Positions 7,060 to 61,132 of a stretch of 64,000 nucleotides of DNA are shown one piece after another. The position numbers and the translations under genes were made by a program. Below the pieces are notes generated by a model, which was not told the DNA's origin, searched no databases, and was given only the letters and a program-made list of their open reading frames with translations. The stretch spans positions 38,392,656 to 38,456,655 of the forward strand of contig CM069445.1 in NCBI GenBank assembly GCA_035610835.1, written 5' to 3'. Source of the stretch: Ophiura sarsii. Lineage: Eukaryota > Echinodermata > Ophiuroidea > Amphilepidida > Ophiuridae. Numbering within the stretch: the first letter of the stretch is position 1; every line of letters begins with the position of its first letter.

Positions 7060-7171
7060 CACTTTTTGTATATTGTTTGATGAATAAAGGCAAACAATTA
7101 TAAATCTTCTTTGTGAGCACTGAGTTCTCTTTGGAAGTATTAGTTGATACTATCTTCAGTAGACATCGTTT

Positions 7172-7416
7172 TAACACTATCCACGCGGCTATTATATTTA
7201 CCATGCACAAAAAAGATTTTTCAGAAACCTTTCACAATTTTCAAAGTCTATCTCAAGGATTACTGAACCAATAGTAGGCATTTTGTACTTATTTCAATGC
7301 ATTTCTCATGGTGATTCCAAATATGGTAATGAAATTCAATACTTTTGACATTTTTGAAACATGTTTGTGAAATTTTGGAATGTCGTCTGCAGCCGCCTGC
7401 CGCGTGGAAAGCGTTG
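7172..7416 (+). mobile_element. MITE, TTAA-CACTTTCCACGCGG family, full copy
   Basis: Starts TTAACACTATCCACGCGG and ends CCGCGTGGAAAGCGTTGA, terminal inverted repeats of about 18 bp that include a TTAA-like outer tetranucleotide. The 245 bp body is shared with copies at 29118-29362, 38633-38846, 57409-57668 and 60893-61132, and with truncated copies in the 2.2 kb array. TTAA flanks are the signature of piggyBac-type target duplication in known families; that assignment is inference. Confidence 0.8.
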
Positions 7417-8304: not shown

Positions 8305-8960
8305 CCCTGGACCTTACATCACCATTTATGTACAGGTATATACCAGCTCATTACAATCATGTACCCTATGATAAGGACAATAAGGTGCCATGCATGGAAT
8401 ACACACTAATGTCATTACACAGAGGTAGACAGGTGTATTAGGCTTAGGGTAAATCTGTGTCAACTAATTAATGTTTCAAGGCAAGCTGTCAGTTTAAATG
8501 ATGCATATATCAGATACCATCTATTATTAAAAAGCATACTATCGAGGCCAATCTCTCACCTTAGACATACACAACCAATACAAAAAGCTCATGTGTTATA
8601 TGACACAACATTATACATTGAGTATGTTTGAGTTTGATGATACATTATATTACATTGTGATCAATGAGCAAATGAAGGCCAGATGCCAGGACATTTAGGT
8701 AATGTTGATATTTTGAATAAAAAAGTAAGCCTTCTCAAATAAAAGGTGTACTCTTTGAAAACTTCAAGCCTTTAGAAGATAGAAAGTGGCACTTTCCAAG
8801 GCACTTGAGCTACATAAAGCTTGATGGGTCTGGAAGTGGGGAAAATTAATCTTTCAATATTACAAAATTGTTGGGTGGAACTAAAGCCAGAAATTACATA
8901 TTTTGCAGATAGCTTTTTATAGAGCACACTTTGAATAAGCATACCCGTGATCACAAGCAT
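8305..8960. other. Intergenic, no gene seen
   Basis: No credible frame or repeat until the outer terminus of the 2 kb element at 8961. Confidence 0.5.
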
Positions 8961-11783: not shown

Positions 11784-12138
11784 TTAAAGGTATATTATGT
11801 GATCTTCCAGGGAACGCCCTCAATTGCAAGCAGATTTTCTTGCAGATTTACATTTCTGATCATATTCCAAGTACATTCCAAGTTACAGGGTGATATGAAT
11901 ACGATTCTTAATTACTACAAAATCATGGTTTTAAAGTGAAAATAAACTGTCGGAGTCTGCGCCGACAACTTATTTTTACTCTAAATTCACTATAAGACCA
12001 TGATTTTGAGGTTATATTGCTCTGTAACTTGGAATATAATTATTCATGATTTATGTAAATCTGCAATAAAATCTGCTTCCAATTTTATTTGGAGGATTGA
12101 GGGCGTCCCCTGGAAAAGATCACATAATAAACTTTTAA
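11784..12138. mobile_element. MITE, TTAAAGG family, copy 1
   Basis: 355 bp element with inverted arms of about 85 bp. Left end is TTAAAGGTATATTATGTGAT and the right end is its imperfect complement ending CTTTTAA. The internal text GAGGGCGT.CC...GGAA and TCTGCTTGCA is shared with 58089-58451. TTAA occurs at both outer ends. A GTCGG/CCGAC pair marks the centre. A 62-codon frame inside the right arm is not a gene. Confidence 0.82.
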
Positions 12139-14845: not shown

Positions 14846-14868
14846 AGAGAGACTGACTTTTATATATA

Positions 14869-17166
14869 CTAGCGGGCACCAGCGCTTCGCGCTGGACCCG
14901 CTAGAAGATTTCACGGGGAATAAGTAAACAAAGCGTAAGAAAATTTTGATACAATAATATCAAGAACATGTCCTACATGTATACATAATCCAGACGGGGC
15001 CCTAAATAATCCGAATATCGCAGGTGCTTTTGATAATCCAGGTATACATTGCCTTAATCTAGGTAGGCTTTGTGTTTCCAGATACCTGTAGGCCTCCCAT
15101 GAGACCTGAAATGCAGGTACCCGTTGTCCCATTATATCCAGGGACCCCATAGGCCAAAGCCCTACCCCCTAATCCAGTTACCCTAGGTGCCCTTAATAAT
15201 GCACCGGATACCACATAATCAAGGTAGGCCCACTGCAGTGTGCCGTTATCTCGAGATACCCAGGTGCCCATACTTTATCATAGTCAAGTAAATTAAACGC
15301 GGGTGCCGAAGATAGCGGACAGTAAAAGTCATATCACAATAGGCAGAGGTGAGTAATATCAAAGCGTTATAAATGTTTATATAAATATCAAGAGTATGTC
15401 CTTAAATAATTCAGGTACTAAAGTGCCCTTGATATAATGTAAGTGACATGGTGCCCTTAATACACCATGAGCCTAGGCCCAATGTGCTCTTAAATAATAC
15501 AGATACCCAAGTTCCTAATCCAAGTAGGCCTACTCCATCAACGTGTTCTTAATACCCCAAGTTATACTCCTGTCAGCGCATGTCTCTACCTATTTTGTAC
15601 CCCAAATAATAAAAAGTTGAATTTTAATGTCAAAATTGAAAGTTACTTAAAATTAGCTTTTAAATGTCTCCCCCGATTCTTTTATTGCCCCGCCACCCCG
15701 TTTTCCTCCTTTAACATTTTGGTGCTGGTGCAAGTGTCGCCACTGCCCATATGCACATACTGTATCCAGGTAATTCAGTAGGCCTACGTTCTGAGCGTTA
15801 TAGTTTTATAGTCGGTCGTTTAGTTTTATGGTCGGCGGAGTCTATCATCAAGATCACTTGTACCATTCCACGCTTGTACTTGAGCACAATGTGTGCCATC
15901 CGGGTTTTGTTTGGCCTATTTACATTAAATACATTATTCCTCCGATAGGCATGTGGGGCCTTAACGTATAGTATGTATAGTCCCTTTATCATGTTTTTGC
16001 TGTGTTCTATAAAGAGTGTTTTACACCCGTTAAAATCCAGTTATCACTGGTGGCCCACCTGCGCATAGTATATCCAGGTAATTTGAGACTAGTTTTACAG
16101 TGAACCCCGTAATCCAAATACCACGGATGCCCTTAATAATCCAGACACTCTATAATGATCATGATAATGTACCACACGTTCCGTTTATCCAGATGCCCCA
16201 TGTGCCCTTATATCCAGATTATCAAGTAAGGGGAGGGAAGTTCGGAGAGGAGGAGGTGGCTTTAGGGTATACACTATTAGAAAAAAAGGGTGCTTCAGAG
16301 GGGTTCTTGGCTGTCCCGTATATGGTTTAAAGGTTCTTTTATTTTAAAGGCCCCAAAAGGTTCTCTTTAGAGGTTCTAAAGACCAATGTTTGCCCATATT
16401 TTGCCCATTTTGAACCTTAAAATGGTTCTTTTTGGAACCTTTTAAGGTGATATAAAGGGTTCCATACGGGACAGCCAAGAACCCCTGAAGCCTGAAGCAT
16501 CCTTTTTCTAAGAGTGTACGGACTGCCTGCTTTCACCCTGCCACGTTACAATGTGCAGTTTGTGCCACAAACGCGTACACACTTTGTCTGCGTCATTACG
16601 TGTGCGCCGAAACGCGTGCGCCATGTTAAACGCGGTCGCGCAGCACAACATACGGTTGGTATGGTACCGCCAGTTTCTTTATCGTTAGCAAACTCCGCGT
16701 TCATCTATGTTATTAATGTGAAAGTGTCACTTTAAGATCTGCGTAAGAGTTTTTGTTTACATTTAGAAAATGTCGTAAAATATTTTAATTTGTTGACCGT
16801 ATAGTCCCGTAAAATGCTTGTTACTATGCGTTCTTTAAGAATAACAAACAGCCGCATATACAGAAATGTTGCTATATCCCTGAAGAAAATATTTTGGGTG
16901 AAGACCATATGTCATCACTCACTCCGAAAACCATAATATTTGTCCGTACAGTAGCTACCCGAGTAAAAGAATTTCAACATTTCGGATTATCATCTGGGAT
17001 CCTTTCTGCGCATGTCTGAAAACGGGAAAAAACGGGCATTGAACTATCTAATTAGCTCGTGTATTAGAGGCGCAATTTCCACGCTTTTTCAGTTGAAGAG
17101 GGACGCGAGTGTAAAATTATTATTGAACTATCTAATCAGGCGAGGGACCGAAAATTAGTATATAGA
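14869..17166 (-). mobile_element. Helitron-like nonautonomous element, copy 1
   Basis: On the minus strand the element begins TCTATATACTAATTTTCGG (ending at plus position 17166, preceded by A) and ends with a hairpin and CTAG (14869), followed by T. This fits the known Helitron pattern A|TC...CTRR|T with a 3' stem-loop. The hairpin is 14879-14895 (CCAGCGC-TTC-GCGCTGG on plus), framed by CTAGCGGG/CCCGCTAG. It matches 41956-45230 in inverted orientation along most of its length. Inside are many degenerate GGATTATTAAGGGCACATGG-like units. No helicase or Rep frame, so it would be mobilised in trans. A MITE (16270-16518) is nested within. Confidence 0.8.
16270..16518. mobile_element. 249 bp MITE nested in the Helitron-like element
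   Basis: Inverted termini of about 50 bp: left TACACTATTAGAAAAAAAGG, right (reverse complement) TACACTCTTAGAAAAAGGAT, then matching GGTTCTTGGCTGTCCCGTAT arms. Sequence on either side (GGCTTTAGGGTA and CGGACTGCCTGC) is found without this insert in the second Helitron copy near 43160 and 42600, so this copy inserted after the Helitron. Confidence 0.85.
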
Positions 17167-21315: not shown

Positions 21316-21584
21316 TACCTACAATCTTGGAAAAAAGTCCTTGGAACGTGAACGCTGAGCACATTGGGTATTGTGTGCATGTAGTGATACTTAGTGTCTT
21401 CTGTTATAAACGGAGATTGTTAAAATTAGATTTTTCCTTCCCCACCCCATCGATCAATGTTGGGACACTCTGGCAATCTGCAGGAGCCACTGGCCTTGGT
21501 CAACATTGTACGGGGGAGTGGGGATGACACTTTTCCGTTAATCACACGCAAGTGTTCCAAGACTTTTTTCCAGGATTGTAGCTA
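21316..21584. mobile_element. 269 bp MITE, TACAATCNTGGAAAAAAGTC termini
   Basis: Left TACCTACAATCTTGGAAAAA and right (reverse complement) TAGCTACAATCCTGGAAAAA continue through AGTC.TTGGAAC, giving inverted arms of about 33 bp. The 66-codon frame at 21327-21527 is internal to the element and not a gene. Confidence 0.75.
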
Positions 21585-23106
21585 GAGGTCACAGGTGCTC
21601 GATGGCACTATTGTTAGCCATATAGATGTTATGTGTGCATCCCCTTGCTGACGGTAAAGGAAAATAGGTTGTGGTTTTTTTTAAGGAAGTTTGTATTTAG
21701 TTTCGATCACCTTGTTATTGTGGTGGTGCCATGCTTAATTATCAAAGCATGAAGTGAATTAAATGAGTGAAATGTTACCAGCAATAACCAATGAGATTTC
21801 AAATAAACTACATCATTTTTATTTTAGGTGCAAGTTACTGGGTGGATTGTACCCATAGTTGTGCAATTGCATCGCAAGTCTTCAAAAGTGTGTCGCATCA
21901 TCGGTAGGGACATAAAACTCGGATTGAAAATAATTACTATAGTGACTCGATCAGCTGTTCGTATTTGATTCACTTAAAGCTTGCACAACTTCCAAAATCG
22001 GCATGTTTGTTGACTGATGGACGATGTTTCATTCAAGTGAATCCAACTGGAATTCTACCCCTGCTGATCTATATGGGTCTATGTGTCTCTTTTCCATAGA
22101 TAACATATTTTTTGGTAGGGTATAGAAACTAAAAGAATTTTGATGTGTTTCAAGTCATAATTTGTTGGTATAGAGTGAGGGGTGTTGGAAATCTTAAATA
22201 TTTCACAAATGAAAAAAAGTCTGCCTTTTCTGATAAAAGAGTGGTTAGCCAACAAGTAGGCAAGTATAGGCTATAACTGAACTTTCACTGGCCTTACATC
22301 AAATGAAAGATGTAGACCTATAAAAGACATAACAATCTAATCTTACAGAAGATAATTGGGAAAAAATATTTGTGTCCATGTTCAGCATAACCATCTCAGA
22401 GATAGATAAATTAAAAATAATATGTGCCTGTTCATACATACAATGACAGTTTATAAATTGTAATCAAAAAAAAAATCTTGCGGCATAGCTTTCAAAAATT
22501 CAAATGAACCGTTATATAGCAAAATCATCATAGTCTGCCATTATCATCGCAGTCCAGTTTTCAATCCATTACCATATCATCATAGTCTGACATTATCATC
22601 GCAGTCCAGTTTTCAATCCATTACCATACTGGTTTTCTTTCTTTGTGTTCATGACAGAGTTTTCTTCATATTAAAAAAACAAATCCAGTTCTAAATCATG
22701 AATGACAGATATCGTCTCAAAGTAGGCCATCAGGCATTTTCCTAAAAGCAAAGCTTAAATTGCAGCACTGATGGTCTGTACACACTGCAGTCGTCAACTA
22801 AATTTGACATATCGTTTCAACAGTGGACTCCTTTATACACCTTATTAAGTTAGCCTAAAAAGAGCTGGTACGATAATGCATTGAGGGGACAGTTTCATGT
22901 CGCACTCAGAACTACTCAGGGAACTCATTTTAAGTGTCCTATTTTTTTTCTAAATCAAGACATGAATGGTCTTTTTGCTCTAGGTAAAACTAATATTTGA
23001 CAATATATCCATCAGTCACTGCAATATCGGTACATCACCTTATGGAAAAACAGCAGTTATACAGCAATAATAAATGGCCAACATAGAAAACATTGTCAAG
23101 ATGCAA
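21585..23106. other. Intergenic with one 52 bp tandem duplication
   Basis: Apart from the duplication at 22524-22627 (ATCATCATAGTCTGNCATTA and the 32 bases after it, twice, one substitution seen) no feature was recognised. Confidence 0.5.
22524..22627. repeat. 52 bp tandem duplication
   Basis: Units at 22524-22575 and 22576-22627 are nearly identical and noncoding. Confidence 0.88.
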
Positions 23107-24351
23107 ATACTATCATCAGTAGATAGTATCACAAAAAAATTAATGCTATCACCAATAGATATCAACACATGAGTGAATGCTATCACCAGTAGATAGCAAC
23201 ATATAAGTTAATGCTATCATCAGTAGATAGCAACACACGAAATGAATGCTATCATCAGTAGATAGCAACACAAGAAATAAATACTATCATCAGTAGATAG
23301 CAACATATTAGTGAATGCTATCACCAGTAGATAGCACCACAAGAAATAAATACTATCATCAGTAGATAGCAACACAATAAATGAATGCTATCATCAGTAG
23401 ATAGCAACACAAGAAATAAATACTATCATCAGTAGATAGCAACATATTAGTGAATGCTATCACCAGTAGATATCAACTCAAGAACTAAATACTATCATCA
23501 GTAGATAGCAACACAAGAAATGAATGCTATCATCAGTAGATAGCAACATATAAGTTAATGCTATCATCAGTAGATAGCAACACAAGAAATGAATGCTATC
23601 ATCAGTAGATAGCAACACAAGAAATGAATACTATCATCAGTAGATAGTAACACAAGAAGTGAATGCTATCATCAGTAGATAGCAACACAAGAAGTGAATG
23701 CTATCACCAGTAGATAGCATAACAAGAAATGAATGCTATTATCAGTAGATAGCAACACAAGAAATAAATGCTATCATCAGTAGATAGCAACACAAGAAAT
23801 AAACGCTATCATCAGTAGATAGCAACACAAGAAATGAATTATATCACCAGTAGATAGCATCACAAGAATAGAATGCTATCATCAGAAGATAGCATCACAA
23901 GAAACAAGTGAATGCTATAATTAGTAGATAGCATCATAAGCAGTGAACGCTATCATCTGTAGATAGCATCACAAGAATTAAATGCTATCATCACAGGAAG
24001 TGAATGCTATCATCAGTAGATAGCAACACAAGCAATTAAACAATTAATGTAATCATCAGTGGATATCAACGCAAGAAGTGAATGCTCTCATAAGGGATAG
24101 CATCGTAAGAAGTGAATTCTATCATCAGTAGATAGTGTCACAATTGAATGTTATCATCAGTAAATAGCGCCTCAAGGAGTTAATGCTATCATCAGTAGAT
24201 AACAACATAAGAAATGAATGCTATCATCAGTAGAAAGCGTCACAAAAAGTGAATGCTTTCATCAGTAGATAGCATCACAAGTGAATGCTATCAACAGTAG
24301 ATAGCAACACAAGAAGTGATCGCTATCATCTGTAGATAGCAACACAATAAG
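23107..24351. repeat. About 36-unit hairpin satellite, period about 35 bp
   Basis: Each unit is GCTATCATCAGTAGATAGC followed by AACACAAGAAATGAAT or a variant. The 19 bp core can pair GCTATC with GATAGC around a 7-base loop. Many units are identical across the core. The linker varies between AACACAAGAA, ATCACAAGAA and AACATATTAG. Units decay toward the right end (23870-24350), while the left and middle are more uniform, as expected of a minisatellite homogenised in its centre. No associated genes. Confidence 0.92.
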
Positions 24352-29117: not shown

Positions 29118-29362
29118 TTAACACTTTCCACACGGCTATTAGTTTTACCATACAAAACAGATTTTTAAGAAACCTTTCCCAACTTTTTAAGTCTATGTCA
29201 AGGATTACTGAACCAGCTACTAGGCATGTTTGTACTCATTTCAATGCATTTCTCATGGAGATTCCAAATATGGTAATGAAATTCAATAATGTTGACATTT
29301 TTGAAACATTTTGTGAAATGTTGGAATGTCGTCTGCAAACGCCGCTGTGTGGAAAGTGTTAA
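29118..29362 (+). mobile_element. MITE, TTAA-CACTTTCCACGCGG family, best-preserved termini
   Basis: Begins TTAACACTTTCCACACGG and ends CGCTGTGTGGAAAGTGTTAA, so both outer tetranucleotides are TTAA. The body matches 7172-7416 over its whole length, including TTTCTCATGG.GATTCCAAAT and GGAATGTCGTCTGCA. Overlapping short frames are shadows of the element. Confidence 0.85.
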
Positions 29363-34789: not shown

Positions 34790-35871
34790 TAGCTATACGT
34801 TCACACGAGGAAGAGTAAGAGCAGTGTAGAGCAGTGTAAAGATGAGTAGCGGTGGTTTGGAGTAGCGATCGAGTAACTGATGGAGTAATGACCGTGTGGA
34901 CGGTGGCTTGCGTAAGTAATGCCACCTTACACCGATCGATTTACTCCCCGGATTTACTCCTACTAAAAAGCAGGAGTAAGTAGTTACTCCTAATATAAAG
35001 CAGGAGTAAGTAGTTTCCCCTACTTAAAAACAGGAGTAAGTAGTAACTCCTACTAAATAGCAGGAGTAAGTAGTCACTCCTACTAAAAAGCAGGAGTAAG
35101 TAGTTACTCCTACTAAAAAGCAGGTGTTATTATTTACTCCTACTAAAAGCAGGAGTAAGTAGTTACTCCTACTAAAAAGCAGGTGTTATTATTTACTCCT
35201 ACTAAAAGCAGGAGTAAGTAGTTACTCCTACTAAAAAGCAGGAGTAAGTAGGATAAGGGAGCTCCGTGTAGTTTCACCGTGGAGTAGCTGACGGTGTAGA
35301 TGCACTTACGCTTTCCATCGCGCATAAGTTTGACCTTTGGGACCTTGCTGTGCACTTCCTGGCAACGGTTGTGCACACCTTTTATTTACGATATATGAAA
35401 TGTATGATCAAATCCCGATAATTTTTTCGATATACATCCAGGGAAAAACAAAGACCAAAACATTTTTATAACATATAAACATGATTGAAGATGTTGTTTG
35501 AGCAGATTATGGAATGTTTTTCAGAAACTTTATGTTTTGCTACGCAAACAGTATATTGAACATAATTATTACCAAAATATCAGGATAAACATCAGCACAT
35601 GAAAACTGGAAGGAACTATTTTGATTGATACTGGTAGAGTGATTTTGAAGATTTTTTACATCATATTTTGCACGATTTTAATTACAACGGTCAACACAAG
35701 CAAAGCTGGCTGTACACCACTTACTCTTGCTGCTGATGAGCGTAAGTTATGGAACGTAGCGATACGAGTAAGGTGGGGGTGGACACGCGGTCTGAATAAC
35801 AAAAATATTTGTGGAATTTGTATTGCTGTTAGCATAAGTTACGCCTCCGAGTAACCGTAGCGAACGTAGCT
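34790..35871. mobile_element. TAGCTGCGTTCAGAC-terminus element, GGAGTAAG type
   Basis: Left TAGCTATACGTTCACACGAG and right (reverse complement) AGCTACGTTCGCTACGG form degenerate inverted ends resembling those of 13980-14845 and 17211-17870. GAGTAA/TTACTC words recur in both subterminal zones. GTGTGGACGGTGG on the left and GTGGACACGCGG on the right mirror each other. A 30 bp hairpin minisatellite fills part of the interior. A 77-codon frame on each strand is not a gene. Confidence 0.65.
34951..35250. repeat. 30 bp self-complementary minisatellite, about ten units
   Basis: Units read TTACTCCTACTAAAAAGC followed by AGGAGTAAGTAG. TTACTCCT pairs with AGGAGTAA in every unit, so each forms an 8 bp stem. 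The period is exactly 30 in most units and 29 in two. Two units carry GGTGTTATTATT in place of the second arm. Confidence 0.9.
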
Positions 35872-38236: not shown

Positions 38237-38632
38237 ATTTGGCCTAACTTTTTTGACCCCCCCCCTCTTGAGTAGGTAAAACTTTTTAGTCCCCCCCTTT
38301 TTGAGACTTCAAACTTTTTAGACCCCCCCCCCCACCAAAGTATTTCTGAACACTCCCTTAGAACATGATTTGACATTCGTGACCTTCTACTTTTTTTTGA
38401 GAAATAAGGTTGAATTTGTAATCATACTTATTTTCTACAAACACAGATGAATTTTCATTTCATTTCATTTCTGCGGTTTTGTTGTCATTTTGTACGTACT
38501 CCGGTAATAGCAATTGTTTCAACTTTTTCAAGATGTCACATGTCTTCATTTGATGAATAAAAAACTCATTTTTTCCCAGTTTACAAAATCAGGAGTGGGC
38601 GGTGATGGACAACCAATCTCAGGCTTACATAG

Positions 38633-38846
38633 TTAACACTTTCCACGCGGCGGTCGTCTGCATATGACAGTTCCAAAATGTCACAAAATGTTTCAAAAAT
38701 GTCAACATTATTAAATGTCATCACCATATTTGGAATCACCATAAGAAAATCATTAAAATAAGTAAAAACATGCGAAAGTTGGGAAATATTTCTGAAAAAT
38801 CTGTTTTGTATAATGTTAAAACTAATAGCCGTGTGGAAAGTGTTAC
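38633..38846 (-). mobile_element. MITE, TTAA-CACTTTCCACGCGG family, reverse copy
   Basis: TTAACACTTTCCACGCGGCG at the left and CCGTGTGGAAAGTGTTA at the right. The body is the reverse complement of 7172-7416 with a short internal deletion. Confidence 0.8.
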
Positions 38847-41387: not shown

Positions 41388-41955
41388 TATCTCATTGTGC
41401 AATCAAGACGGGTCATATATGGTGATGAAAAACTTGTTTTGAGGAGCACAACTGACATGGTGTAGAGGCGTATAACTTGATTTCTTACTCCAGTAACCCC
41501 CAGCAATATCTCAGGTGTGAAATTATTATTAGACCCATTTTTCCTTCTGATACAATATTCATGTCGTGACATTACCCCTTGGGTGTCAGGTTAAACAAAA
41601 TCCGAACGTGATGTAGTTCTGTCACTTCCTTTAAATGTCATACTATCATGTATCTACATCCCTTGTCAATGGCAGTGCCCTTTGGACATTACCCTGCTAT
41701 ATCTATCATAATACTTTACTCATGTAAACCAAACATGGTCCAGGCTTCTGATTAAACAGAGACAAATGACTATTGACTCAACACTCAATACAGTGAAATG
41801 TTCTACAAGGTAAACATAATTTCGATTTTGTATAGAACTTTAACAGAATAGCTAGGGATTCACCCTCATTTTGGTACAACCTGTTTGAGACCATGGAATA
41901 ACTTCCATGGTGAGACAATGTTACAGTATATTCAAAGTGGGGCTCAGAGGAGGCT
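41388..41955. other. Intergenic, no gene seen
   Basis: No supported feature. Confidence 0.45.
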
Positions 41956-44900
41956 TCTATATACTAATTTTCGGAACATGGCTTTATTAGATAGTTCAAT
42001 ATAATTTTACACTCGCGTCCCTCTTCAACTGAAAAAGTGTGGTAATTGCGCCTCTAATACACGAGCTAATTAGATAGTTCAATGTCCGTTTTTTCCCGTT
42101 TTCAGACATGCGCAGAAAGGATCACATGTGAAAATCCGAAATGTTGAATTTCTTTTACTCGGGTAGTTACTGTTCGGACACAAATTGTGGTTTTCAGAAT
42201 GAGTGATGACATATGGTCTTCACCCAAAATATTTTCTTCAGGGATATAGCTACATTTCTGTATATGCGGCTGTTTGTTATTCTTAAAGAACGCATAGTAA
42301 CAAGCATTTATACGGGACTATACGTCCAACAAATTAAAATATTTTACGACATTTTCGAAATGTAAACAAAAACTCTTACGCAGATCTTAAAGTGACACTT
42401 TCACATTAATAACATAGATGAACGCGGAGTTTGCTGACGATAAAGAAACTGGCGGTACCATACCAACCGTTGTTGTTGCGCCGCGTTTAACATGGCGCAC
42501 GCGATTCGGCGCACACGTAATGACGCAGACAAAGTGTGTACGCGTTTGTGGCGCAAACTGTACATTGTAAACGGGGCATGCAGTGAAAGCAGGCAGTCCG
42601 TACGGTTGCTCCGCGGTGCATACCGTACATACACAGTACAATAAAATGTAACGAGAGCAAGACACAAACAAAACTTTAATCATAAAGCCAAGACCTTTTT
42701 TTTATAAGAAACTGTGAGCAAGGCGCAAACCGTATCCAGGATAACATATTTAAAGTGACTGAAGTGGCTGAAGGAAAATACATTTGATGGAGTCACTCAT
42801 GCAGTTGTAACCCCATGGCTGGTCATGAAGCTATGGGCTGGTGGATCATGGTTGACCACCCCCCCCCCCCCCCCCCCACCCCCACACTCATCCCCCCACA
42901 CACCCCTTTCATTTTCTTTGTGCGACTTATTATACAGCGGTGCGGCTTACTGTATACGATGAGGTCTGAATCTTAATTTGAGGTGCTGCGGCTTATTCGC
43001 CGTGCGGCTTATATAGCACGTAAATTACGGGATTGTCACATCATACCCTAAGGTCTAAGCCCTCTTCCCCCGCACTTCCCTTACTTGATAATATGGATAT
43101 AGTAAGGCGGCCTTACTAAGGCCACATGGGTATCTGGATAAACGGAACGTGCGGTATTGTCCCATCATACCCTAAAGCCACCTCCTCCTAACCCGCACTT
43201 CACTTACTTGATAATCTGGATATAAGGGCACATGGGCATCTGGATAAACAGAACGTGTAGTATATTATCATGATTATTATAGAGTGTCTGGATTAGTAAG
43301 GGCACCAGTGGTATCTGGATTACGGGTTCACTATAAAACGCAGATAGTCTCAAATTACCTGGATATACTATGCGCAGGTGTGGCACCTGTGATAACTGGA
43401 TTTAAAGGGTGTATTAGGTAGTATCTCGGAAGGCCTTATTTAGAACACAACAAACATGACAAAAGGGACTACATACGTTTAGGCCCTACATGCCTATTGG
43501 AGGAATGATGTATTTAAGTAAATAAGCCAAACCAAACCCGGATGGCACACATATCAACATTTTAAAGGAGGACAACGGGGTGGCGGGGCAATAAAAGAAT
43601 CGGGGGAGACATTTTAAAGCTAATTTTAAGTTACTTTCCGTTTTGACATTAAAATACAACTTTTGTATTATTTCGGTAAGGACATGAGCTGACAGGGGGT
43701 AACTGGGGGAGGGGATATTAAGGTAATCCAGATACTCTGAATATTTTAAGTATTCCTACACATTCAGGTGTCCTTATTAATCCACGTAGGCCCTAATAGC
43801 CGCATACACAGTTATCACACGGGTGCACTTAATATTCGATTCAAGATCAACCATATACGGTAGTCCTTGGAGGACCTATATTGGATCACTAATACACAAT
43901 CTTGATTATTAAAGTACATGGGGTGGTACCTGAATAATCAAGGGTACCATGTGTTATACATGCATGGTATACATGGATTTATTAAGGGCACATGGTATAT
44001 ATGGATTATTAAGGGCACTGTGGTACCAATGTCAGTATTAAGGGCACCTAGGATACATGGAGTATCAACGACATACTCTTGCTGTTTTACAATACCCTCA
44101 TCTTTATACGTTTTGATGTGACTAACCACCCGCTATTATAGCTTCGGCACCTATAGGCCTACCTGCGCTTTCCATTATAAACTGGATATAATACGGGTAC
44201 AATGGTATGGATATAATGCTGGCAAATGCGGTACCTGGGTTATTAAGGCCATCTGTGAGGGGTAGGGCCTAGGCCTATGGGCAACCGGTGTATTAAGAAC
44301 ACGTGGAGTACTTGGATTATCAACGACATACTCTTGCTGTTTTACAGTACCCTCATCTTTATACGTTTTGATGTGACTAACCACCCGTTATTATAGCTTC
44401 GGCACCTATACCTGCGCTTTCCATTATAAACTGGATATAATACGGGTACATTGGTATGGATATAATGCCGGCAAATGCGGTACCTGGGTTATTAAGGCCA
44501 TCTGTGAGGGGTAGGGCCTAGGCCTATGGGCAACCGGTGTATTACGAACACGTAGAGTACTTGGATTAGGAACATGGGTATCTGTATTATTTAAGAGCAC
44601 ATTGGGCCTACATAGGCGCATGGTGTATTAAGGGTACCATGTCACTTACATTATATCAAGGGCACTTTAGGTACCTGCCCTGGGTCCCTGAATAAGGACA
44701 TACTCTTGATATTTATATAAACATTTATAACACTTTGATATTACTCACCTCTGCCTATTGTGGTATGACTATTACTGCCCGCTATCTTCGGCACCCGCGA
44801 TTAATTCAAGTTACTTGAATGATACACATGATACAGTAAGGCACCTGGGTATCTCGATATAACGGCACACTGCAGTACCTGGATCATGTGGTATCCGGTG

Positions 44901-45230
44901 CCATTAAGGGCACCTGTGGTAACGGGATTAGGGGTAGGGCTAGGCCTATGGAGTCCCTGGATATAATGGGACAACGGGTACCTGTATTTCAGATCACATG
45001 GGAGGCCTCCATAGGTATCTGGAAAGACAAAGGTAGGCCTACCTACTTTAAGGCACATATACCTGGATTATCAATAGCCCCTGCGGTATTCGGATTATTT
45101 GGGGCCCGTCTGGATTATGTATACATGTAGGACATGTTTTTGATATTGTATCACATTTGCTTCCGCTTTGTTTACTTACCTCCCCGTGAAATCTTCTAGC
45201 GGGTCCGCGCGAAGCGCGGATGCCCGCTAG
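41956..45230 (+). mobile_element. Helitron-like nonautonomous element, copy 2
   Basis: Begins TCTATATACTAATTTTCGG (preceded by T) and ends GCCCGCTAG at 45230, followed by T. The 3' hairpin at 45205-45219 is CCGCGC-GAA-GCGCGG. It aligns in inverted orientation with 14869-17166 at both ends and through the GTGCGCCG.NACGCGTGCG region and the GGATTATTAAGGGCAC repeats. It is about 1 kb longer, owing to extra sequence around 42603-43000 (with a 19-base C run at 42859-42877 and GCGGCTTATA words) and a 255 bp tandem duplication at 44066-44566. No Rep/helicase frame. Confidence 0.8.
44066..44566. repeat. 255 bp tandem duplication inside Helitron copy 2
   Basis: CAACGACATACTCTTGCTGT at 44066 and 44321. 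The second unit lacks 9 bases (GGCCTACCT region) but otherwise follows the first closely. The other Helitron copy has no such duplication. Confidence 0.9.
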
Positions 45231-45656
45231 TCTATATAATTATGTATGTCACAAGGGGGAAGTGCTTAAAGTTGCGCAAAGTCCCCAAAATCGTATAGTA
45301 AAATAGTTTAAGGGATTTGAAAAAATGTGTGAAATTTTCAGCCAAATTACAACTACTTTGGGAAACGTTGGTAACCTACTGCAACTTTGCATATTTCTAC
45401 ACAAAAAATTAACTCAACTTTGCAAAACTTCGGAAATATTTGGGATTTTTAAAAACATTTTAAATTTCCGGCAAATGAGCGAAACTTTTGATATTTTAAA
45501 AAAAACTTGACACAAAAAATAGTGTAAGTTATCAAACCTGTGTGGATTTTGGTCTATTTTGGGCACTACTTCAGGTATTTCCTCCTTTGACATGAGGCCT
45601 GCTCAGGAAGTGATCCTTGTGGAAAAGGGTCTTCCCAAATTTATAGGACAGCCCTT

Positions 45657-46604: not shown

Positions 46605-48213
46605 GAAGAGTAGCGGATGAAGCTAAAAAGAGGGTCTACAGACTGAGCAGCAAATCCTATCCCTACATGTACCTACACCAATTTTCTATATCAGTGCAGA
46701 CCCCTACAGGGTGAGTCCAAAAAAAAGTGTACTCAGAGTAAAATAATTATTAAAAATATTTGTTATCAGAATATGAAGGCAACCAATGTATGCGCAACCT
46801 TCCAACGGCTAAAAAAAACCCATTCTGCGTGACCCAAACTTCCATGCCCCCACCCTGAAAATCTAATGTTGCGTCCCTCAGCAGCAGTCACTCTTTGACA
46901 GCAGCAGTTCAAGCCTACTATACGATTATGAAGGCAAAATATAGTGAAACCAAAAACAGTTGAGTGAACTTAACCAGAACATTCCATTTACTTATCATGC
47001 TTATGTTATTTTGTTATTATTTACAGTTTATGACCCTCAACCAAGTCTGGGCAATTTCCCCCCTTATATCCTGTTTACACGAGAGCCGTAACACCCAGCG
47101 CTCAACCGTAACTGATTGCCATATATATGTATACAAACCGCAACAACCCCCACTAAATTCAGTTGTATTTGTTTACTGGACTTCACTGAACAAACTCAGA
47201 AAAAGTAATGATCCAACACGTCAAATTCAATAGACAAAATGCAAAATCAATACAACAAATGAACAAATAAAACACATGGTACAGACAGGACCAATCCTAC
47301 ACTTGACCCCTACATATTTGCCTGTATTATTTAGATAACACTGATATAAATTGGGACCAAACTTATTATTTGCTTGAGCTCACACAAGTGTGTAATTTGT
47401 ACCATGCAAATTATGTCATATCCTGTCAAATTGTCAATACAAATTTTAATGGGACTACTATGATTATGTCAAAAATCTTTGGAAACGAGCAGTAAAACCG
47501 GTCAAATATTAGCGGTAATAACACACAATAGAAATGTTGGCATAAATAAGATGAAAGACTTTTCAGAGTCTGGGAATCATGAAGAACTTTTATTTTTGCA
47601 GTAGACCAAAATAGTAGGAATTTAGGAATGAAAACTTATCAAATGAAAATGAAAATGAAAATCTTTCATGATCTTTCATGCCCTTTGAAAGTTAAAAGTT
47701 TGGCATGCTGACTGATTTGGGAAAAGTTCACATAAGGCTGGGTAACATTGAGGGGGTACTCACCACATATGTGCCTGCAGAATGATGATGTCTTTTAACC
47801 CTAACCCCTGTACGGCGTGATTTGGGAATAACATGGGACGGGTGAAAGTCCGGCTGTGCCCGTGCCGCATATTATACCGAGTCTTCTGCATGGAAGTCCT
47901 GCACCTACTTGATCGTGCCACAGAGTCAGTTTAGAAAAATCTTACGATTTTCCTCAACATATGATAGCCCATCTGATTGCACCATGAGGTACATTGTAGA
48001 CTGGGGAAGCACACGCTACAAGCAGTGTTTTGTATTGATGAGAAAGGTTAGGGTTATTAAACCTGTTTAACTTGAAATGCAACATTTTACAGCGCAGACT
48101 TAAAAGTTATGACAAAACCCCTAAATGTTTATCCTCTGCTGACCCCAAATGGACCAGTTTTATCCTACTCCTACCAGTAGGACAGTAGTAAATGTAATCT
48201 AAGGTGACTAACC
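46605..48213. other. Intergenic, no gene seen
   Basis: An 89-codon plus frame at 46964-47233 has no recognisable feature. The GAAAATGAAAAT run at 47640 is trivial. Confidence 0.45.
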
Positions 48214-48214
48214 A

Positions 48215-48488
48215 CAATGTTAGAAAAAGTGTTCGAACACTTAGTAGGCCTAATGTAAAGTCATCCCCCTTTCCCCCCTGATCAATGTTGAGTCGCCCAA
48301 CTTGCCAAACATCAGCCCGTGGCCTAGCAACATTGATTGGTGGGGGAAGGGGAGGGGTATATTGAAGGGGGGCTTTCAGGCTAGCAGATGCAAATTGGTA
48401 TTTTCACATGACTCTAAAAATGCGTACTATAGGGTAATTAAACGGTGCAAACAATGGTCAGTGTTCGAACACCATTTTTCTATGATTG
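48215..48488. mobile_element. Array-boundary inverted-terminus element, copy 1
   Basis: Left CAATGTTAGAAAAAGTGTTC and right (reverse complement) CAATCATAGAAAAATGGTGT, followed in both by TCGAACACT. The arms include perfect palindromes AAGTGTTCGAACACTT and GTGTTCGAACAC. The inner arms CCCCTTTCCCCCCTGATCAA and TTGATTGGTGGGGGAAGGGG pair again, so the element is a double hairpin. Noncoding; superfamily unknown. Confidence 0.82.
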
Positions 48489-48870
48489 TGTATAAAATCG
48501 CTTCCTTATAAAAGGAAATCATCTAAATTTGGTTTTTGGCGTGTATCTCCAAAAGACTATAAGCTATTCTTCTGAGATTTGGCATGATTATCAGGATGGT
48601 TTAGGCCCGTCATCGTGTGTAATATGAATGGGAACGGTGAATGTTAAGGAATTGTTCGTACGATTGAATTGTTGAATATATCTAAATGTGTGTAAATGTA
48701 AAGGTCATTATGATTATGTATCTTGTCATATACTTGAAATGTATAGCATTACCGACACCAAATACATAGTGAATAAATTATTGTGACTGTTAAATTCTGA
48801 GGTGTTTGTATTTAATTTAATTAATGTGACGACTTAATCCAAACACATTTCAACTCTGAAGAGGGACGAT

Positions 48871-48991
48871 TTAACGCTTTCCACGCGGTATACGCAAAGC
48901 AGATTTTTCAAAAACATTTCAACTTTCAAAGTCTATCTCAAGGATTACTGGACCAATACTAGGCACGTTTGTACTTATTTCAATGCATTTC
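48871..48991 (+). mobile_element. Truncated TTAA-CACTTTCCACGCGG MITE in array unit 1
   Basis: Starts TTAACGCTTTCCACGCGG and matches 7172-7416 through TACTTATTTCAATGCATTTC, then stops. Present at the same place in units 2 (51108-51228) and 3 (53335-53455), so the insertion and truncation predate amplification. Confidence 0.8.
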
Positions 48992-49780
48992 AGTAAAGTA
49001 GGGCATGATCTAACTAATAAAGGTCAAGAACATTGTTCATGTCAAGTGCTAACTATAACAAATTGATGGATTTCTAAACATTCAATTGATGTTTTACTAT
49101 GTGTTAATTATTATATGGTTTTAGCATGAGTTAGGCCTAATCGAACTTTTATTAATATGCGTAATAATTGAGCGTGTCACTACATCTTTTCTGCAATACT
49201 ATTTTTCCGACAACAAATTATGGTCAGTAATCATCTCTTACATTATTAAAATAATGTTCTCTCAGACTGATGACGCAAAACTATAGCCTACATTGATCAA
49301 ACGGGTTCTATTGATGATTTTGGTAAATGGTCAACCGTTAACGTTTTACCATCATCATGCTCATAGACAAACACGCACTTTGAACGATTCACCAACAAGT
49401 AAAATTATATACTATAGTTTCTTTTTTTAAAAGACGGAGAATCGTTGCAGTGTGTGTTATGCCAATGAGAAATCGCCAACGTTTTACCTTTACCATCACC
49501 TTTCAGCTTTCCGTGCATTGCATTTGTAGATATGTTGTTGCTCTCACTAAACTTTGTTCAGTCTTTTAAGACTCAAGGTGTTCCTATTGGATGTGTATCT
49601 GATAGGCTAATCCAAACAAGTCATTGATGTCATGTATCAATTCAATGGAATGTAGAATAGGTGAGTGCCAATCATGTTACAAACACCTTAGTAGTCCGTT
49701 CCGCTCTGTTTTACGGATACACTTCATATATTCCATCGAATGCAATAGTATCTTTTCTGAAAACCTTTCACTATCAACAC

Positions 49781-49895
49781 CTCGTTTAGCTCAGTCGATA
49801 GATCGCTCGCTTGTTACCAAACCTATATTTAATGGTAGTGGGTTCGAATCTGTCATTGGCCTATCTTACTTTTATTACTTATTCTTTTTTTTTTA
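49781..49895 (+). tRNA. tRNA-like Pol III module, array unit 1
   Basis: TTTAGCTCAGTCGATAGA fits an A-box and GGTTCGAATC (49841-49850) an excellent B-box about 50 bp later. A ten-T run at about 49885-49894 would end Pol III transcription. The acceptor arms do not pair and the anticodon arm is disrupted, so this is a tRNA-derived (SINE-like) or pseudo-tRNA module, not a working tRNA. Confidence 0.55.
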
Positions 49896-50056
49896 AATTC
49901 TCTTCTAGATCTTATTTTCATTCATGTATTTTTATTTATTCTTTTTATTCATTTCTTTTTCTTTTTTCTTTTTATGCTATGACGTGATGCTAATTAATGT
50001 TCATAACAATATATTCTATCATTGTGGCGTGGGCATTTGGTGCTATAGTGGTTATT

Positions 50057-50075
50057 GCTATCTACCGTAGATAGC
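50057..50075. repeat. Perfect palindrome GCTATCTACCGTAGATAGC
   Basis: Nine-base arms around a single C. Repeated at 52294-52312 and 54521-54539. The arms are the same word as in the 23107-24351 satellite core. Confidence 0.85.
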
Positions 50076-50450
50076 AGTTAGGGCCTATATGCTATATAGT
50101 ATGTACATGACTTAGATATTACCCATGAACTCGCATTCGAGTTTGTATCAACGTTTAGATGAAATTGGTTGTCATTAATACCAAAATATTACATGTGTGT
50201 TCCATTTATTTAACCGTTACCTGTACATATACGAATTGCGCCATTCTAAATATGTTGAAATTTGAAGGAAATATTGGTTGAAAATCATCATTTTGTAAAA
50301 AGTACTTAATATTTATTAATAATATTAAGTGGTCTTATTGCGCATTGTATACGCTACAATGTGTGAAAATCACATTGATATCGATTGAGTGGTTCTCAAG
50401 TTATGATGTAAAACGTGAGGCATGACAGCGCGTGTTTTCAATAGCTCAGA

Positions 50451-50725
50451 CAATGTTAGAAAAAAGTGTTCGAACACTTAGTAGGCCTAACATAAAGTCA
50501 TCCCCCTTTCCCCCCTGATCAATGTTGAGTCGCCCAACTTGCCAAACATCAGCCCGTGGCCTAGCAACATTGATTGGTGGGGGAAGGGGAGGGGTATATT
50601 GAAGGGGGGCTTTCAGGCTAGCAGATGCAAATTGGTATTTTCACATGACTCTAAAAATGCGTACTATAGGGTAATTAAACGGTGCAAACAATGGTCAGTG
50701 TTCGAACACCATTTTTCTATGATTG
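50451..50725. mobile_element. Array-boundary element, copy 2
   Basis: Same structure as 48215-48488, with one more A in the left arm. Lies at the junction of array units 1 and 2. Confidence 0.82.
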
Positions 50726-51107
50726 TGTATAAAATCGCTTCCTTATAAAAGGAAATCATCTAAATTTGGTTTTTGGCGTGTATCTCCAAAAGACTATAAG
50801 CTATTCTTCTGAGATTTGGCATGATTATCAGGATGGTTTAGGCCCGTCATCGTGTGTAATATGAATGGGAACGGTGAATGTTAAGGAATTGTTCGTACGA
50901 TTGAATTGTTGAATATATCTAAATGTGTGTAAATGTAAAGGTCATTATGATTATGTATCTTGTCATATACTTGAAATGTATAGCATTACCGACACCAAAT
51001 ACATAGTGAATAAATTATTGTGACTGTTAAATTCTGAGGTGTTTGTATTTAATTTAATTAATGTGACGACTTAATCCAAACACATTTCAACTCTGAAGAG
51101 GGACGAT

Positions 51108-51228
51108 TTAACGCTTTCCACGCGGTATACGCAAAGCAGATTTTTCAAAAACATTTCAACTTTCAAAGTCTATCTCAAGGATTACTGGACCAATACTAGG
51201 CACGTTTGTACTTATTTCAATGCATTTC
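51108..51228 (+). mobile_element. Truncated TTAA MITE in array unit 2
   Basis: Same truncated copy as 48871-48991. Confidence 0.8.
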
Positions 51229-52017
51229 AGTAAAGTAGGGCATGATCTAACTAATAAAGGTCAAGAACATTGTTCATGTCAAGTGCTAACTATAACAAAT
51301 TGATGGATTTCTAAACATTCAATTGATGTTTTACTATGTGTTAATTATTATATGGTTTTAGCATGAGTTAGGCCTAATCGAACTTTTATTAATATGCGTA
51401 ATAATTGAGCGTGTCACTACATCTTTTCTGCAATACTATTTTTCCGACAACAAATTATGGTCAGTAATCATCTCTTACATTATTAAAATAATGTTCTCTC
51501 AGACTGATGACGCAAAACTATAGCCTACATTGATCAAACGGGTTCTATTGATGATTTTGGTAAATGGTCAACCGTTAACGTTTTACCATCATCATGCTCA
51601 TAGACAAACACGCACTTTGAACGATTCACCAACAAGTAAAATTATATACTATAGTTTCTTTTTTTAAAAGACGGAGAATCGTTGCAGTGTGTGTTATGCC
51701 AATGAGAAATCGCCAACGTTTTACCTTTACCATCACCTTTCAGCTTTCCGTGCATTGCATTTGTAGATATGTTGTTGCTCTCACTAAACTTTGTTCAGTC
51801 TTTTAAGACTCAAGGTGTTCCTATTGGATGTGTATCTGATAGGCTAATCCAAACAAGTCATTGATGTCATGTATCAATTCAATGGAATGTAGAATAGGTG
51901 AGTGCCAATCATGTTACAAACACCTTAGTAGTCCGTTCCGCTCTGTTTTACGGATACACTTCATATATTCCATCGAATGCAATAGTATCTTTTCTGAAAA
52001 CCTTTCACTATCAACAC

Positions 52018-52132
52018 CTCGTTTAGCTCAGTCGATAGATCGCTCGCTTGTTACCAAACCTATATTTAATGGTAGTGGGTTCGAATCTGTCATTGGCCTA
52101 TCTTACTTTTATTACTTATTCTTTTTTTTTTA
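52018..52132 (+). tRNA. tRNA-like Pol III module, array unit 2
   Basis: Identical module to 49781-49895 in the second tandem unit, T run included. Confidence 0.55.
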
Positions 52133-52687
52133 AATTCTCTTCTAGATCTTATTTTCATTCATGTATTTTTATTTATTCTTTTTATTCATTTCTTTTTCTT
52201 TTTTCTTTTTATGCTATGACGTGATGCTAATTAATGTTCATAACAATATATTCTATCATTGTGGCGTGGGCATTTGGTGCTATAGTGGTTATTGCTATCT
52301 ACCGTAGATAGCAGTTAGGGCCTATATGCTATATAGTATGTACATGACTTAGATATTACCCATGAACTCGCATTCGAGTTTGTATCAACGTTTAGATGAA
52401 ATTGGTTGTCATTAATACCAAAATATTACATGTGTGTTCCATTTATTTAACCGTTACCTGTACATATACGAATTGCGCCATTCTAAATATGTTGAAATTT
52501 GAAGGAAATATTGGTTGAAAATCATCATTTTGTAAAAAGTACTTAATATTTATTAATAATATTAAGTGGTCTTATTGCGCATTGTATACGCTACAATGTG
52601 TGAAAATCACATTGATATCGATTGAGTGGTTCTCAAGTTATGATGTAAAACGTGAGGCATGACAGCGCGTGTTTTCAATAGCTCAGA

Positions 52688-52962
52688 CAATGTTAGAAAA
52701 AAGTGTTCGAACACTTAGTAGGCCTAACATAAAGTCATCCCCCTTTCCCCCCTGATCAATGTTGAGTCGCCCAACTTGCCAAACATCAGCCCGTGGCCTA
52801 GCAACATTGATTGGTGGGGGAAGGGGAGGGGTATATTGAAGGGGGGCTTTCAGGCTAGCAGATGCAAATTGGTATTTTCACATGACTCTAAAAATGCGTA
52901 CTATAGGGTAATTAAACGGTGCAAACAATGGTCAGTGTTCGAACACCATTTTTCTATGATTG
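52688..52962. mobile_element. Array-boundary element, copy 3
   Basis: Junction of units 2 and 3. The 10-base loss of unit 3 lies just outside its right end (GTGTATAATCGCTTAAGG). Confidence 0.82.
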
Positions 52963-53334
52963 TGTATAATCGCTTAAGGAAATCATCTAAATTTGGTTTT
53001 TGGCGTGTATCTCCAAAAGACTATAAGCTATTCTTCTGAGATTTGGCATGATTATCAGGATGGTTTAGGCCCGTCATCGTGTGTAATATGAATGGGAACG
53101 GTGAATGTTAAGGAATTGTTCGTACGATTGAATTGTTGAATATATCTAAATGTGTGTAAATGTAAAGGTCATTATGATTATGTATCTTGTCATATACTTG
53201 AAATGTATAGCATTACCGACACCAAATACATAGTGAATAAATTATTGTGACTGTTAAATTCTGAGGTGTTTGTATTTAATTTAATTAATGTGACGACTTA
53301 ATCCAAACACATTTCAACTCTGAAGAGGGACGAT

Positions 53335-53455
53335 TTAACGCTTTCCACGCGGTATACGCAAAGCAGATTTTTCAAAAACATTTCAACTTTCAAAGTCTAT
53401 CTCAAGGATTACTGGACCAATACTAGGCACGTTTGTACTTATTTCAATGCATTTC
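53335..53455 (+). mobile_element. Truncated TTAA MITE in array unit 3
   Basis: Same truncated copy as 48871-48991. Confidence 0.8.
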
Positions 53456-54244
53456 AGTAAAGTAGGGCATGATCTAACTAATAAAGGTCAAGAACATTGT
53501 TCATGTCAAGTGCTAACTATAACAAATTGATGGATTTCTAAACATTCAATTGATGTTTTACTATGTGTTAATTATTATATGGTTTTAGCATGAGTTAGGC
53601 CTAATCGAACTTTTATTAATATGCGTAATAATTGAGCGTGTCACTACATCTTTTCTGCAATACTATTTTTCCGACAACAAATTATGGTCAGTAATCATCT
53701 CTTACATTATTAAAATAATGTTCTCTCAGACTGATGACGCAAAACTATAGCCTACATTGATCAAACGGGTTCTATTGATGATTTTGGTAAATGGTCAACC
53801 GTTAACGTTTTACCATCATCATGCTCATAGACAAACACGCACTTTGAACGATTCACCAACAAGTAAAATTATATACTATAGTTTCTTTTTTTAAAAGACG
53901 GAGAATCGTTGCAGTGTGTGTTATGCCAATGAGAAATCGCCAACGTTTTACCTTTACCATCACCTTTCAGCTTTCCGTGCATTGCATTTGTAGATATGTT
54001 GTTGCTCTCACTAAACTTTGTTCAGTCTTTTAAGACTCAAGGTGTTCCTATTGGATGTGTATCTGATAGGCTAATCCAAACAAGTCATTGATGTCATGTA
54101 TCAATTCAATGGAATGTAGAATAGGTGAGTGCCAATCATGTTACAAACACCTTAGTAGTCCGTTCCGCTCTGTTTTACGGATACACTTCATATATTCCAT
54201 CGAATGCAATAGTATCTTTTCTGAAAACCTTACACTATCAACAC

Positions 54245-54359
54245 CTCGTTTAGCTCAGTCGATAGATCGCTCGCTTGTTACCAAACCTATATTTAATGGT
54301 AGTGGGTTCGAATCTGTCATTGGCCTATCTTACTTTTATTACTTATTCTTTCTTTTTTT
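54245..54359 (+). tRNA. tRNA-like Pol III module, array unit 3
   Basis: Same A-box and B-box as the other units. The T run is interrupted by a C (TTTCTTTTTTT), the clearest difference between units at this module. Confidence 0.55.
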
Positions 54360-54914
54360 AATTCTCTTCTAGATCTTATTTTCATTCATGTATTTTTATT
54401 TATTCTTTTTATTCATTTCTTTTTCTTTTTTCTTTTTATGCTATGACGTGATGCTAATTAATGTTCATAACAATATATTCTATCATTGTGGCGTGGGCAT
54501 TTGGTGCTATAGTGGTTATTGCTATCTACCGTAGATAGCAGTTAGGGCCTATATGCTATATAGTATGTACATGACTTAGATATTACCCATGAACTCGCAT
54601 TCGAGTTTGTATCAACGTTTAGATGAAATTGGTTGTCATTAATACCAAAATATTACATGTGTGTTCCATTTATTTAACCGTTACCTGTACATATACGAAT
54701 TGCGCCATTCTAAATATGTTGAAATTTGAAGGAAATATTGGTTGAAAATCATCATTTTGTAAAAAGTACTTAATATTTATTAATAATATTAAGTGGTCTT
54801 ATTGCGCATTGTATACGCTACAATGTGTGAAAATCACATTGATATCGATTGAGTGGTTCTCAAGTTATGATGTAAAACGTGAGGCATGACAGCGCGTGTT
54901 TTCAATAGCTCAGA

Positions 54915-55189
54915 CAATGTTAGAAAAAAGTGTTCGAACACTTAGTAGGCCTAACATAAAGTCATCCCCCTTTCCCCCCTGATCAATGTTGAGTCGCCCA
55001 ACTTGCCAAACATCAGCCCGTGGCCTAGCAACATTGATTGGTGGGGGAAGGGGAGGGGTATATTGAAGGGGGGCTTTCAGGCTAGCAGATGCAAATTGGT
55101 ATTTTCACATGACTCTAAAAATGCGTACTATAGGGTAATTAAACGGTGCAAACAATGGTCAGTGTTCGAACACCTTTTTTCTATGATTG
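54915..55189. mobile_element. Array-boundary element, copy 4 (end of array)
   Basis: Homology to the array stops at 55189, exactly at the terminal CTATGATTG of the element; the next base begins unrelated sequence (CAGGTAGG). Confidence 0.85.
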
Positions 55190-55636
55190 CAGGTAGGTTA
55201 TGGTGAGGATTGAGAATGGTGTTCAAAGACAGGGCTCAAGGTCAAAGTTTAATGTCCAATGGTGCCCTGAATGACCGGTTCAATGATAAAGGTTAACGAT
55301 ATCGTATGGTTTCAAAATCAAGAATTAGTTGTCCATTGCTTAATTGCGGGATAATGAATGAGAATCTATAGTAATTACACATTTTCTCTGGCTATATTTT
55401 TCATTCTTTTTAAAAGTTGTGTATCGATGTGTTTACTTATAGGATATGGAGGTATCCTTTTGGCTTCATGAGCCAATGAGCCAATGAGTCAATGAGCCAA
55501 TGAGTCAATGAGTCAAAAAACTTAAGAGGTGATTAAAATATTTAACAGTAAATATCATTATTTCAAATAGCGTTAACTTTCCAGAGCCTTAGTAGAATAC
55601 GCTCCATGAGACAGATCATTACCCTGCCCAGGCTGC
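55190..55636. other. Intergenic with a 10 bp microsatellite
   Basis: GAGCCAATGA/GAGTCAATGA units repeat about five times at 55470-55515. No gene. Confidence 0.7.
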
Positions 55637-57408: not shown

Positions 57409-57668
57409 TTAGCACTTTCCACGCGGTTTTTAGTTTTACCATACAAAACAGATTTGTCAGAAACCTTTCCCAACTTTCAAGGTCCATCTCCAGGATTACT
57501 GAACCAAAGCATATTCAACCTTATTTGAATGCACTATCCAATGCTCCAATGATCTGCTAATAATAGTGCATTTCTCATGGTGATTCCAAATATGGTAATA
57601 AAAGTAATAATTTTGACATTTTTGAAACATTTTGTGAAAATGTGGAATGTCGTCTGCAGATGCCTATC
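57409..57668 (+). mobile_element. MITE, TTAA-CACTTTCCACGCGG family, right end degraded
   Basis: Starts TTAGCACTTTCCACGCGG and ends soon after GTCGTCTGCAGATGCC, where the right terminus is lost. It carries a short insertion around 57530-57565 that repeats GATCTGCTAATAAT-like text present near 57050. Confidence 0.75.
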
Positions 57669-58088: not shown

Positions 58089-58451
58089 TTTAAAGGCATA
58101 TTATGCGATCTTTCCATGGGACACCCTCTATCCTTGGGGTTTTTTTTAAAGCAGAATTTCTTGCAGATTTACATTTCTGATCATAAATCATAAATATGTT
58201 CGGAGTTACATAGCGATACGCTTCCAATTCATGGTTTAATTGATATTGTCCTGCTGCAGGACAGTTTATTTTCATTCTAAATTCACTCTAAAACTACAAT
58301 TTTGAAGTAATTAGGAATCGTATCACCCTGTAACTCAGAATGTATTTATGATTTATGATCAGAAATGTAAATCTGCAAGAAAATCTGCTTTCAAAAAAAA
58401 AAATCAAGGATAGAGGGCGTCCCATGGAAAGATCGCGCAATATGCCTTTAA
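58089..58451. mobile_element. MITE, TTAAAGG family, copy 2
   Basis: Left TTAAAGGCATATTATGCGAT and the complement ending ATGCCTTTAA at 58451; inverted arms of about 120 bp. Centre GTCCTG/CAGGAC is palindromic. Related to 11784-12138 over its full length. Frames on the minus strand are shadows. Confidence 0.87.
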
Positions 58452-60892: not shown

Positions 60893-61132
60893 TTGAACGC
60901 TTTCCATGCGGCAGGCGTCTGCAGACAATATTCCAAAATGTTTCAAAAATGTCAAAATTATTGAACCTCATTGCCATATTTGGAATCACCATGAGAAATG
61001 CATTGAAATAAGTACAAACATGCCTAGTATTGGTTCTGTAATCCTTGGGATCGACCTTGAGAGTTGGGAAAGCTTTATGAATAATCTGTTTTGTATGGTA
61101 AAACCAAAAGCCGCATGGAAATTAGTGTTAAG
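60893..61132 (-). mobile_element. MITE, TTAA-CACTTTCCACGCGG family, reverse copy
   Basis: TTGAACGCTTTCCATGCGGC at the left and GCCGCATGGAAATTAGTGTT followed by AA at the right. The body is the reverse complement of 7172-7416. An 85-codon frame overlapping it is a shadow. Confidence 0.8.

Follow-up and report, generated by a model that had tools for sequence, protein, structure and literature searches.

In a 64,000-nucleotide stretch of the Ophiura sarsii genome (GenBank assembly GCA_035610835.1, contig CM069445.1, positions 38,392,656–38,456,655 of the forward strand; the whole stretch is hereafter called the window), a tandem array occupies positions 48214–55189 and begins and ends with the same short inverted-repeat element. 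The array probably arose by tandem duplication through non-allelic homologous recombination (NAHR) between two same-facing copies of this element, which resembles a miniature inverted-repeat transposable element (MITE); from the sequence we put the probability of this reading at roughly 0.7. Unequal exchange is favoured because it explains the edges of the array, its chimeric internal elements and the stepwise divergence of its units with the fewest assumptions.

Architecture of the array

The array, with the order element–spacer–element–spacer–element–spacer–element, consists of three 2.2 kb units that are almost identical to one another, followed by a 276-bp end piece (Table 1). The unit starts are spaced 2236, 2237 and 2227 bp apart. 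In a BLASTN comparison of the array with the 64,000-base window, a shift by one unit gives 99.64% identity over 4750 aligned positions, a shift by two units gives 99.3% over 2513 positions and a shift by three units gives 98.6% over 276 positions. On these alignments the array cannot be a chance match. The original prediction, which was made from the letters of the window, had described three near-identical units followed by a fragment of exactly one element, and both the BLASTN comparison and the alignment agree with that description. The edges of the array had been placed at the left and right ends of the element; they do fall where the homology between elements stops, at ACAATG... on the left and ...GATTG on the right. 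The predicted element is present at all four places, although with these boundaries it measures 275–276 bp rather than 274 bp. The window contains no N.

Table 1. Positions of the array components, related sequences and motifs in the window
Feature	Positions	Strand	Characteristics or basis
Diverged lone relative of the element, TA on both sides	21322..21579	-	alignment, nhmmer
TA left of element 1 (L) at the lone relative's outer offset	48209..48210	.	flank comparison
Element 1 (L), outer-left MITE-like copy	48214..48488	+	left variants: one A fewer, TG at alignment columns 42-43
Spacer 1, 1961 bp	48489..50449	+	identical to spacer 2; coding signal not found
TA right of L at the lone relative's outer offset	48493..48494	.	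flank comparison
Fragment of dispersed repeat in spacer 1	48867..48991	+	other copies at 7167-7305, 29118-29252, 57409-57533, 60995-61093
tRNA-like A-box and B-box motifs, starts 54 nt apart, then T run at 49885	49787..49850	+	motif search, unit 1
Element 2, chimera with left end of R and right end of L type	50450..50725	+	end variants
Spacer 2, 1961 bp	50726..52686	+	identical to spacer 1
Element 3, chimera with left end of R and right end of L type	52687..52962	+	end variants
Spacer 3, 1951 bp	52963..54913	+	small differences from spacer 2
Element 4 (R), outer-right MITE-like copy	54914..55189	+	right variant T at alignment column 262
TA right of R at the lone relative's outer offset	55194..55195	.	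flank comparison

End variants of the elements

Four alignment columns vary among the four array elements. Element 1, the outer-left copy (L), has one A fewer than the others and carries TG (two columns) where elements 2–4 carry CA. Element 4, the outer-right copy (R), has T near its right end (column 262) where elements 1–3 have A. The left-end deviation of element 1 had been recognized in the original prediction; the right-end variant of element 4 had gone unmentioned. Elements 2 and 3 combine the left variants of R (the extra A and CA) with the right variant of L (A), such that chimeric repeats lie at the internal junctions and parental repeats on the outside, as NAHR would leave them, on the basis of these four columns. 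This arrangement also supports the earlier suggestion that element 1 represents the original left flank.

Two of the columns were compared with the lone relative of the element, a diverged copy elsewhere in the window: the second base of the TG/CA pair, where the lone relative has G, and the right-hand base, where it has T. Element 1 has the states (G,A) and element 4 the states (A,T), elements 2 and 3 share (A,A), and the lone relative has (G,T); with the last as outgroup all four gametes are obtained in each of four MAFFT settings. Because all four combinations exist, the internal elements are read as recombinants with a left end derived from R and a right end derived from L; repeated mutation at one of the two sites would be the alternative. 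The lone relative carries CG at the position occupied by TG in L and by CA in R. The two states may thus reflect independent decay of a single CpG, as would fit L and R being separate, old copies.

The middle 218 bp are identical in all four elements, and every difference lies within the outer 58 bp. Under random scatter, the chance that all differences would fall in these outer 58 bp is 0.009 for three events and 0.002 for four, and a 218-bp stretch free of differences would occur somewhere in the element with a probability of 0.035 and 0.009, respectively. The identical core moderately supports exchange or conversion through the centre of the element.

Spacer differences and the order of events

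Spacers 1 and 2 match at every one of their 1961 bp. Relative to spacer 2, spacer 3 has one mismatch, deletions of 2 bp and 8 bp just after element 3, and two further single-base changes, which appear as 1-bp indels in one alignment and as two substitutions in a poly-T tract in another. The deletions, absent from the original prediction, are rendered in a different alignment as one 10-bp gap with mismatches. Since spacers 1 and 2 are the same and spacer 3 differs, the array formed in at least two steps, the later of them recent, or conversion homogenized two of the three units.

MITE-like character of the element

The termini of the element form imperfect inverted repeats (87% over 30–31 aligned positions) that surround GTGTTCGAACAC and include an 18-nt ungapped core at 89%; a second, inner inverted pair spans 25 nt at 84%. 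When folded as single-stranded DNA, the whole element is more stable than its shuffled versions (z = -4.82; 0 of 200 shuffles as stable), as are its left 150 bases alone (z = -4.27; 1 of 200). No coding sequence was found in the element in a six-frame Pfam scan of unit 1 at curated cut-offs; the protein-family scans covered two stretches, unit 1 and positions 41950–45250. The element is short and non-coding with terminal inverted repeats, as MITEs are. It is probably a MITE-like, TA-targeting, non-autonomous DNA transposon whose superfamily assignment is unproven, and it would presumably have been mobilized by a TA-specific transposase.

The lone relative lies on the opposite strand and shares 142 of 254 aligned bases (56%) with element 4. 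Aligned locally with element 4, it scores 397. Of the rest of the window, taken in 500-bp pieces, the runners-up scored 286 (the same place read on the other strand) and 283 (a different place), and among 300 two-base-block shuffles the highest score was 285. The nhmmer E-value of 6.5e-61 is not independent support, as the model contains the lone relative itself.

The lone relative has TA directly at each side and TA again four bases further out on each side. The simplest boundary model places TA immediately next to CAATG. It holds at each end of the lone relative and fails at four of four ends of L and R; it was rejected, and the outer TA position was considered for that reason. At this outer offset TA occurs at three of the four ends of L and R (Table 1). 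With a TA frequency of 0.084 in the window, the chance of at least three in four is about 0.002, a value to be doubled for the two boundary models. The TA duplication that would mark a Tc1/mariner-type element is clear at the lone relative only. A Transib-like reading of the CACAATG of element 1 was also dropped: elements 2–4 lack CACAATG at their left ends, and no 5-bp duplication was seen by eye.

Proposed origin and alternatives

The favoured explanation starts from a non-coding region in which a single kind of non-autonomous inverted-repeat transposon would have been present twice, the copies facing the same way and separated by about 2 kb. If chromatids or homologues were misaligned, L could recombine with R, which would duplicate the intervening DNA and leave at each new junction a chimeric element with the left part of R and the right part of L. 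The first exchange would yield a pair of units that went on to acquire small differences, and a subsequent exchange or conversion would duplicate one unit, producing two identical spacers and a differing third. NAHR yields n+1 elements for n spacers together with chimeric junction elements, and the array has both. We infer that crossing over between chromosomes was the cause, and the array presumably has no selected function; nothing in the sequence pointed to selection for it.

Several observations weigh against this explanation or against the transposon assignment on which it draws. The recombination signature consists of four variable columns, of which the right-hand one is a single base, and the polarity of the changes is uncertain with an outgroup that is only 56% identical. 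Taken alone, the right 150 bases of the element are no more stable when folded than shuffled versions are (z = +1.56). In the window nhmmer detected a single lone relative (the next, unrelated place has E = 0.32), which is few for a MITE family. Directly adjoining L and R, TA is found at none of the four ends (CA/TG and GA/CA), the left end of R has its TA three bases away from the outer offset, and the outer TA boundary was chosen after the data had been seen.

The earlier proposal of amplification between two flanking elements had named both unequal exchange and a rolling circle. Unequal exchange is the better supported of the two, but the second route predicts the same chimeras. An extrachromosomal circle of spacer plus one element, formed by L–R recombination or multiplied by rolling-circle replication and then reintegrated into an element by homologous recombination, would give an identical n+1 pattern, and an anomalous rolling-circle origin is reported for the Bari1 clusters of Drosophila (PMC9659126). 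The circle route takes more steps than unequal exchange, and the difference between spacer 3 and spacers 1 and 2 speaks against one recent multimeric insertion unless the divergence came later; we consider such an origin improbable. An assembly artefact, which we regard as unlikely, is only slightly easier to credit. The locus would then hold a single L–spacer–R, and the assembler would have looped through the identical 218-bp cores, writing the spacer of one haplotype twice and that of the other once. Such a loop walk yields exactly the chimeric internal elements observed; it would also account for the identity of spacers 1 and 2, and spacer 3, with its few differences, might come from the other allele. 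It requires, however, two haplotype versions of the spacer, in a window without N in which other tandem arrays are spelled out with diverged copies. Moreover, short-read assemblers usually collapse near-identical 2.2 kb units rather than expand them.

Movement of a composite unit, also raised in the original prediction, finds a weak hint in the flanks. In this reading the outermost ends of L and R would have moved the whole array, or one L–spacer–R unit, in one piece; TA occurs at the two outer ends at equal offset, the outer pair directly at the element ends also reads CA/CA, and by eye the bases just outside the left end of L and the right end of R resemble the ends of the lone relative. Yet the inner right end of L also has TA at this offset and the TA at the left end of R is three bases off, as independent insertions would give, and a two-base duplication is little proof. 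We think a composite transposon very unlikely, and equally so the broader idea that two MITEs serve as the ends of a larger mobile unit whose cargo is 2 kb of host DNA containing a Pol III (RNA polymerase III)-like promoter and which moves or multiplies as element–spacer concatemers. Hardly credible is a tandem long terminal repeat (LTR) retroelement, in which the element would be the LTR and the spacer the internal region of an element like a terminal-repeat retrotransposon in miniature (TRIM). The layout matches the LTR–internal–LTR–internal–LTR order of Cassandra arrays (PMC7215508), and the unit contains a Pol III-like promoter motif. The element nevertheless has long inverted termini, with homology that runs from ACAATG to GATTG and not TG...CA; there is no purine run of at least 6 in the 60 bp before the next element, neither a 4–6-bp duplication around the array nor a primer-binding site at the internal start was seen by eye, and part of an unrelated dispersed repeat lies within the spacer.

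Relation to known systems

IS26-type translocatable-unit arrays in bacteria have an element–segment–element–segment–element architecture and involve an active transposase. The Ophiura array has the same architecture, but coding sequence was not found in its element.

Parallels are described in two papers (PMC9659126, PMC12628747), where NAHR and unequal exchange between copies of transposable elements are given as a source of tandem repeats. The Ophiura array resembles such tandem duplications in having direct repeats at both ends. It differs in that the flanking repeat is a 276-bp MITE-like element and the duplicated segment is non-coding, while the type of event is the same. Among the MITE-derived satellites presented there are Xstir and miDNA4 in Xenopus and Pearl-derived repeats in bivalves (PMC9659126, PMC12628747), in which, as here, short inverted-repeat elements seed tandem repeats. 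In Xstir and miDNA4 the repeated sequence lies inside the MITE, whereas the unit in Ophiura is the MITE together with 1.96 kb of neighbouring DNA. The Cassandra arrays share the repeat–internal–repeat–internal–repeat layout, and their copy-number change is proposed to occur via unequal crossing-over; in silico the arrays tended towards roughly three LTRs, and amplification recovered arrays with as many as 13 (PMC7215508). Cassandra belongs to the LTR retroelements and has a 5S-derived promoter within the LTR, unlike the present element, which has inverted termini and in which LTR features were not found.

The event would accordingly be of a known kind, an ordinary route of genome repeat growth. 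The array offers a small, readable case of the onset of a satellite-like array, in which same-facing short transposons appear to have duplicated the DNA between them and variants at their ends preserve traces of the exchange. Arrays of this sort are informative about how satellites originate and how copy number changes; the process itself has already been described (PMC9659126, PMC12628747).

Spacer content

The spacer looks like ordinary non-coding host DNA, because it holds a fragment of a dispersed repeat (Table 1). This repeat is about 245 bp long and has at least five copies in the window (7171–7415, 29118–29360, 57409–57665, 38627–38845 and 60896–61131), with a fragment in each array spacer. 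In six frames of unit 1 no Pfam family scored above its curated cut-off; three sub-threshold matches reached 12.7–14 bits against cut-offs of 25–27, so far below that a coding function of the unit was rejected. The A-box and B-box motifs with their T run form a possible candidate Pol III promoter. A tRNA gene in the spacer was rejected, with nothing reported by ARAGORN at standard thresholds or by Rfam, which gave no match in the spacer at all; with lowered thresholds ARAGORN returned eight candidates in 2512 bases, which we took as noise.

Pattern scans found no copies in the viral contigs and genome contigs of viral and prokaryotic collections, which are unlikely to hold such a genome. A translated search of the viral contigs gave 12 pattern matches, none of them confirmed, and a protein search gave no shared words; both are weak evidence given the type of collection.

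The surrounding window

The window is repeat-rich, and its longest stop-to-stop frame is at most 157 codons, two features that point to eukaryotic DNA. Other tandem arrays lie at 1–719 (period 156), 9111–9755 (318), 23106–24347 (35 or 139), 34954–35251 (30) and 44035–44568 (249 bp), and tandem duplication is therefore common in this region. Positions 14860–17166 and 41956–45239 are inverted, collinear copies of a 2–3 kb repeat with blocks of 82–94% identity; a six-frame scan of 41950–45250 gave no Pfam family with an E-value of 0.1 or less. A second inverted pair of about 1.2–1.5 kb, with blocks 89–94% identical, is formed by 1168–2345 and 8959–10443. Finally, an imperfect palindrome of 362 bp (77%) at 58090–58451 has a diverged relative (68%) at 11784–12138 and is possibly another inverted-repeat transposon.

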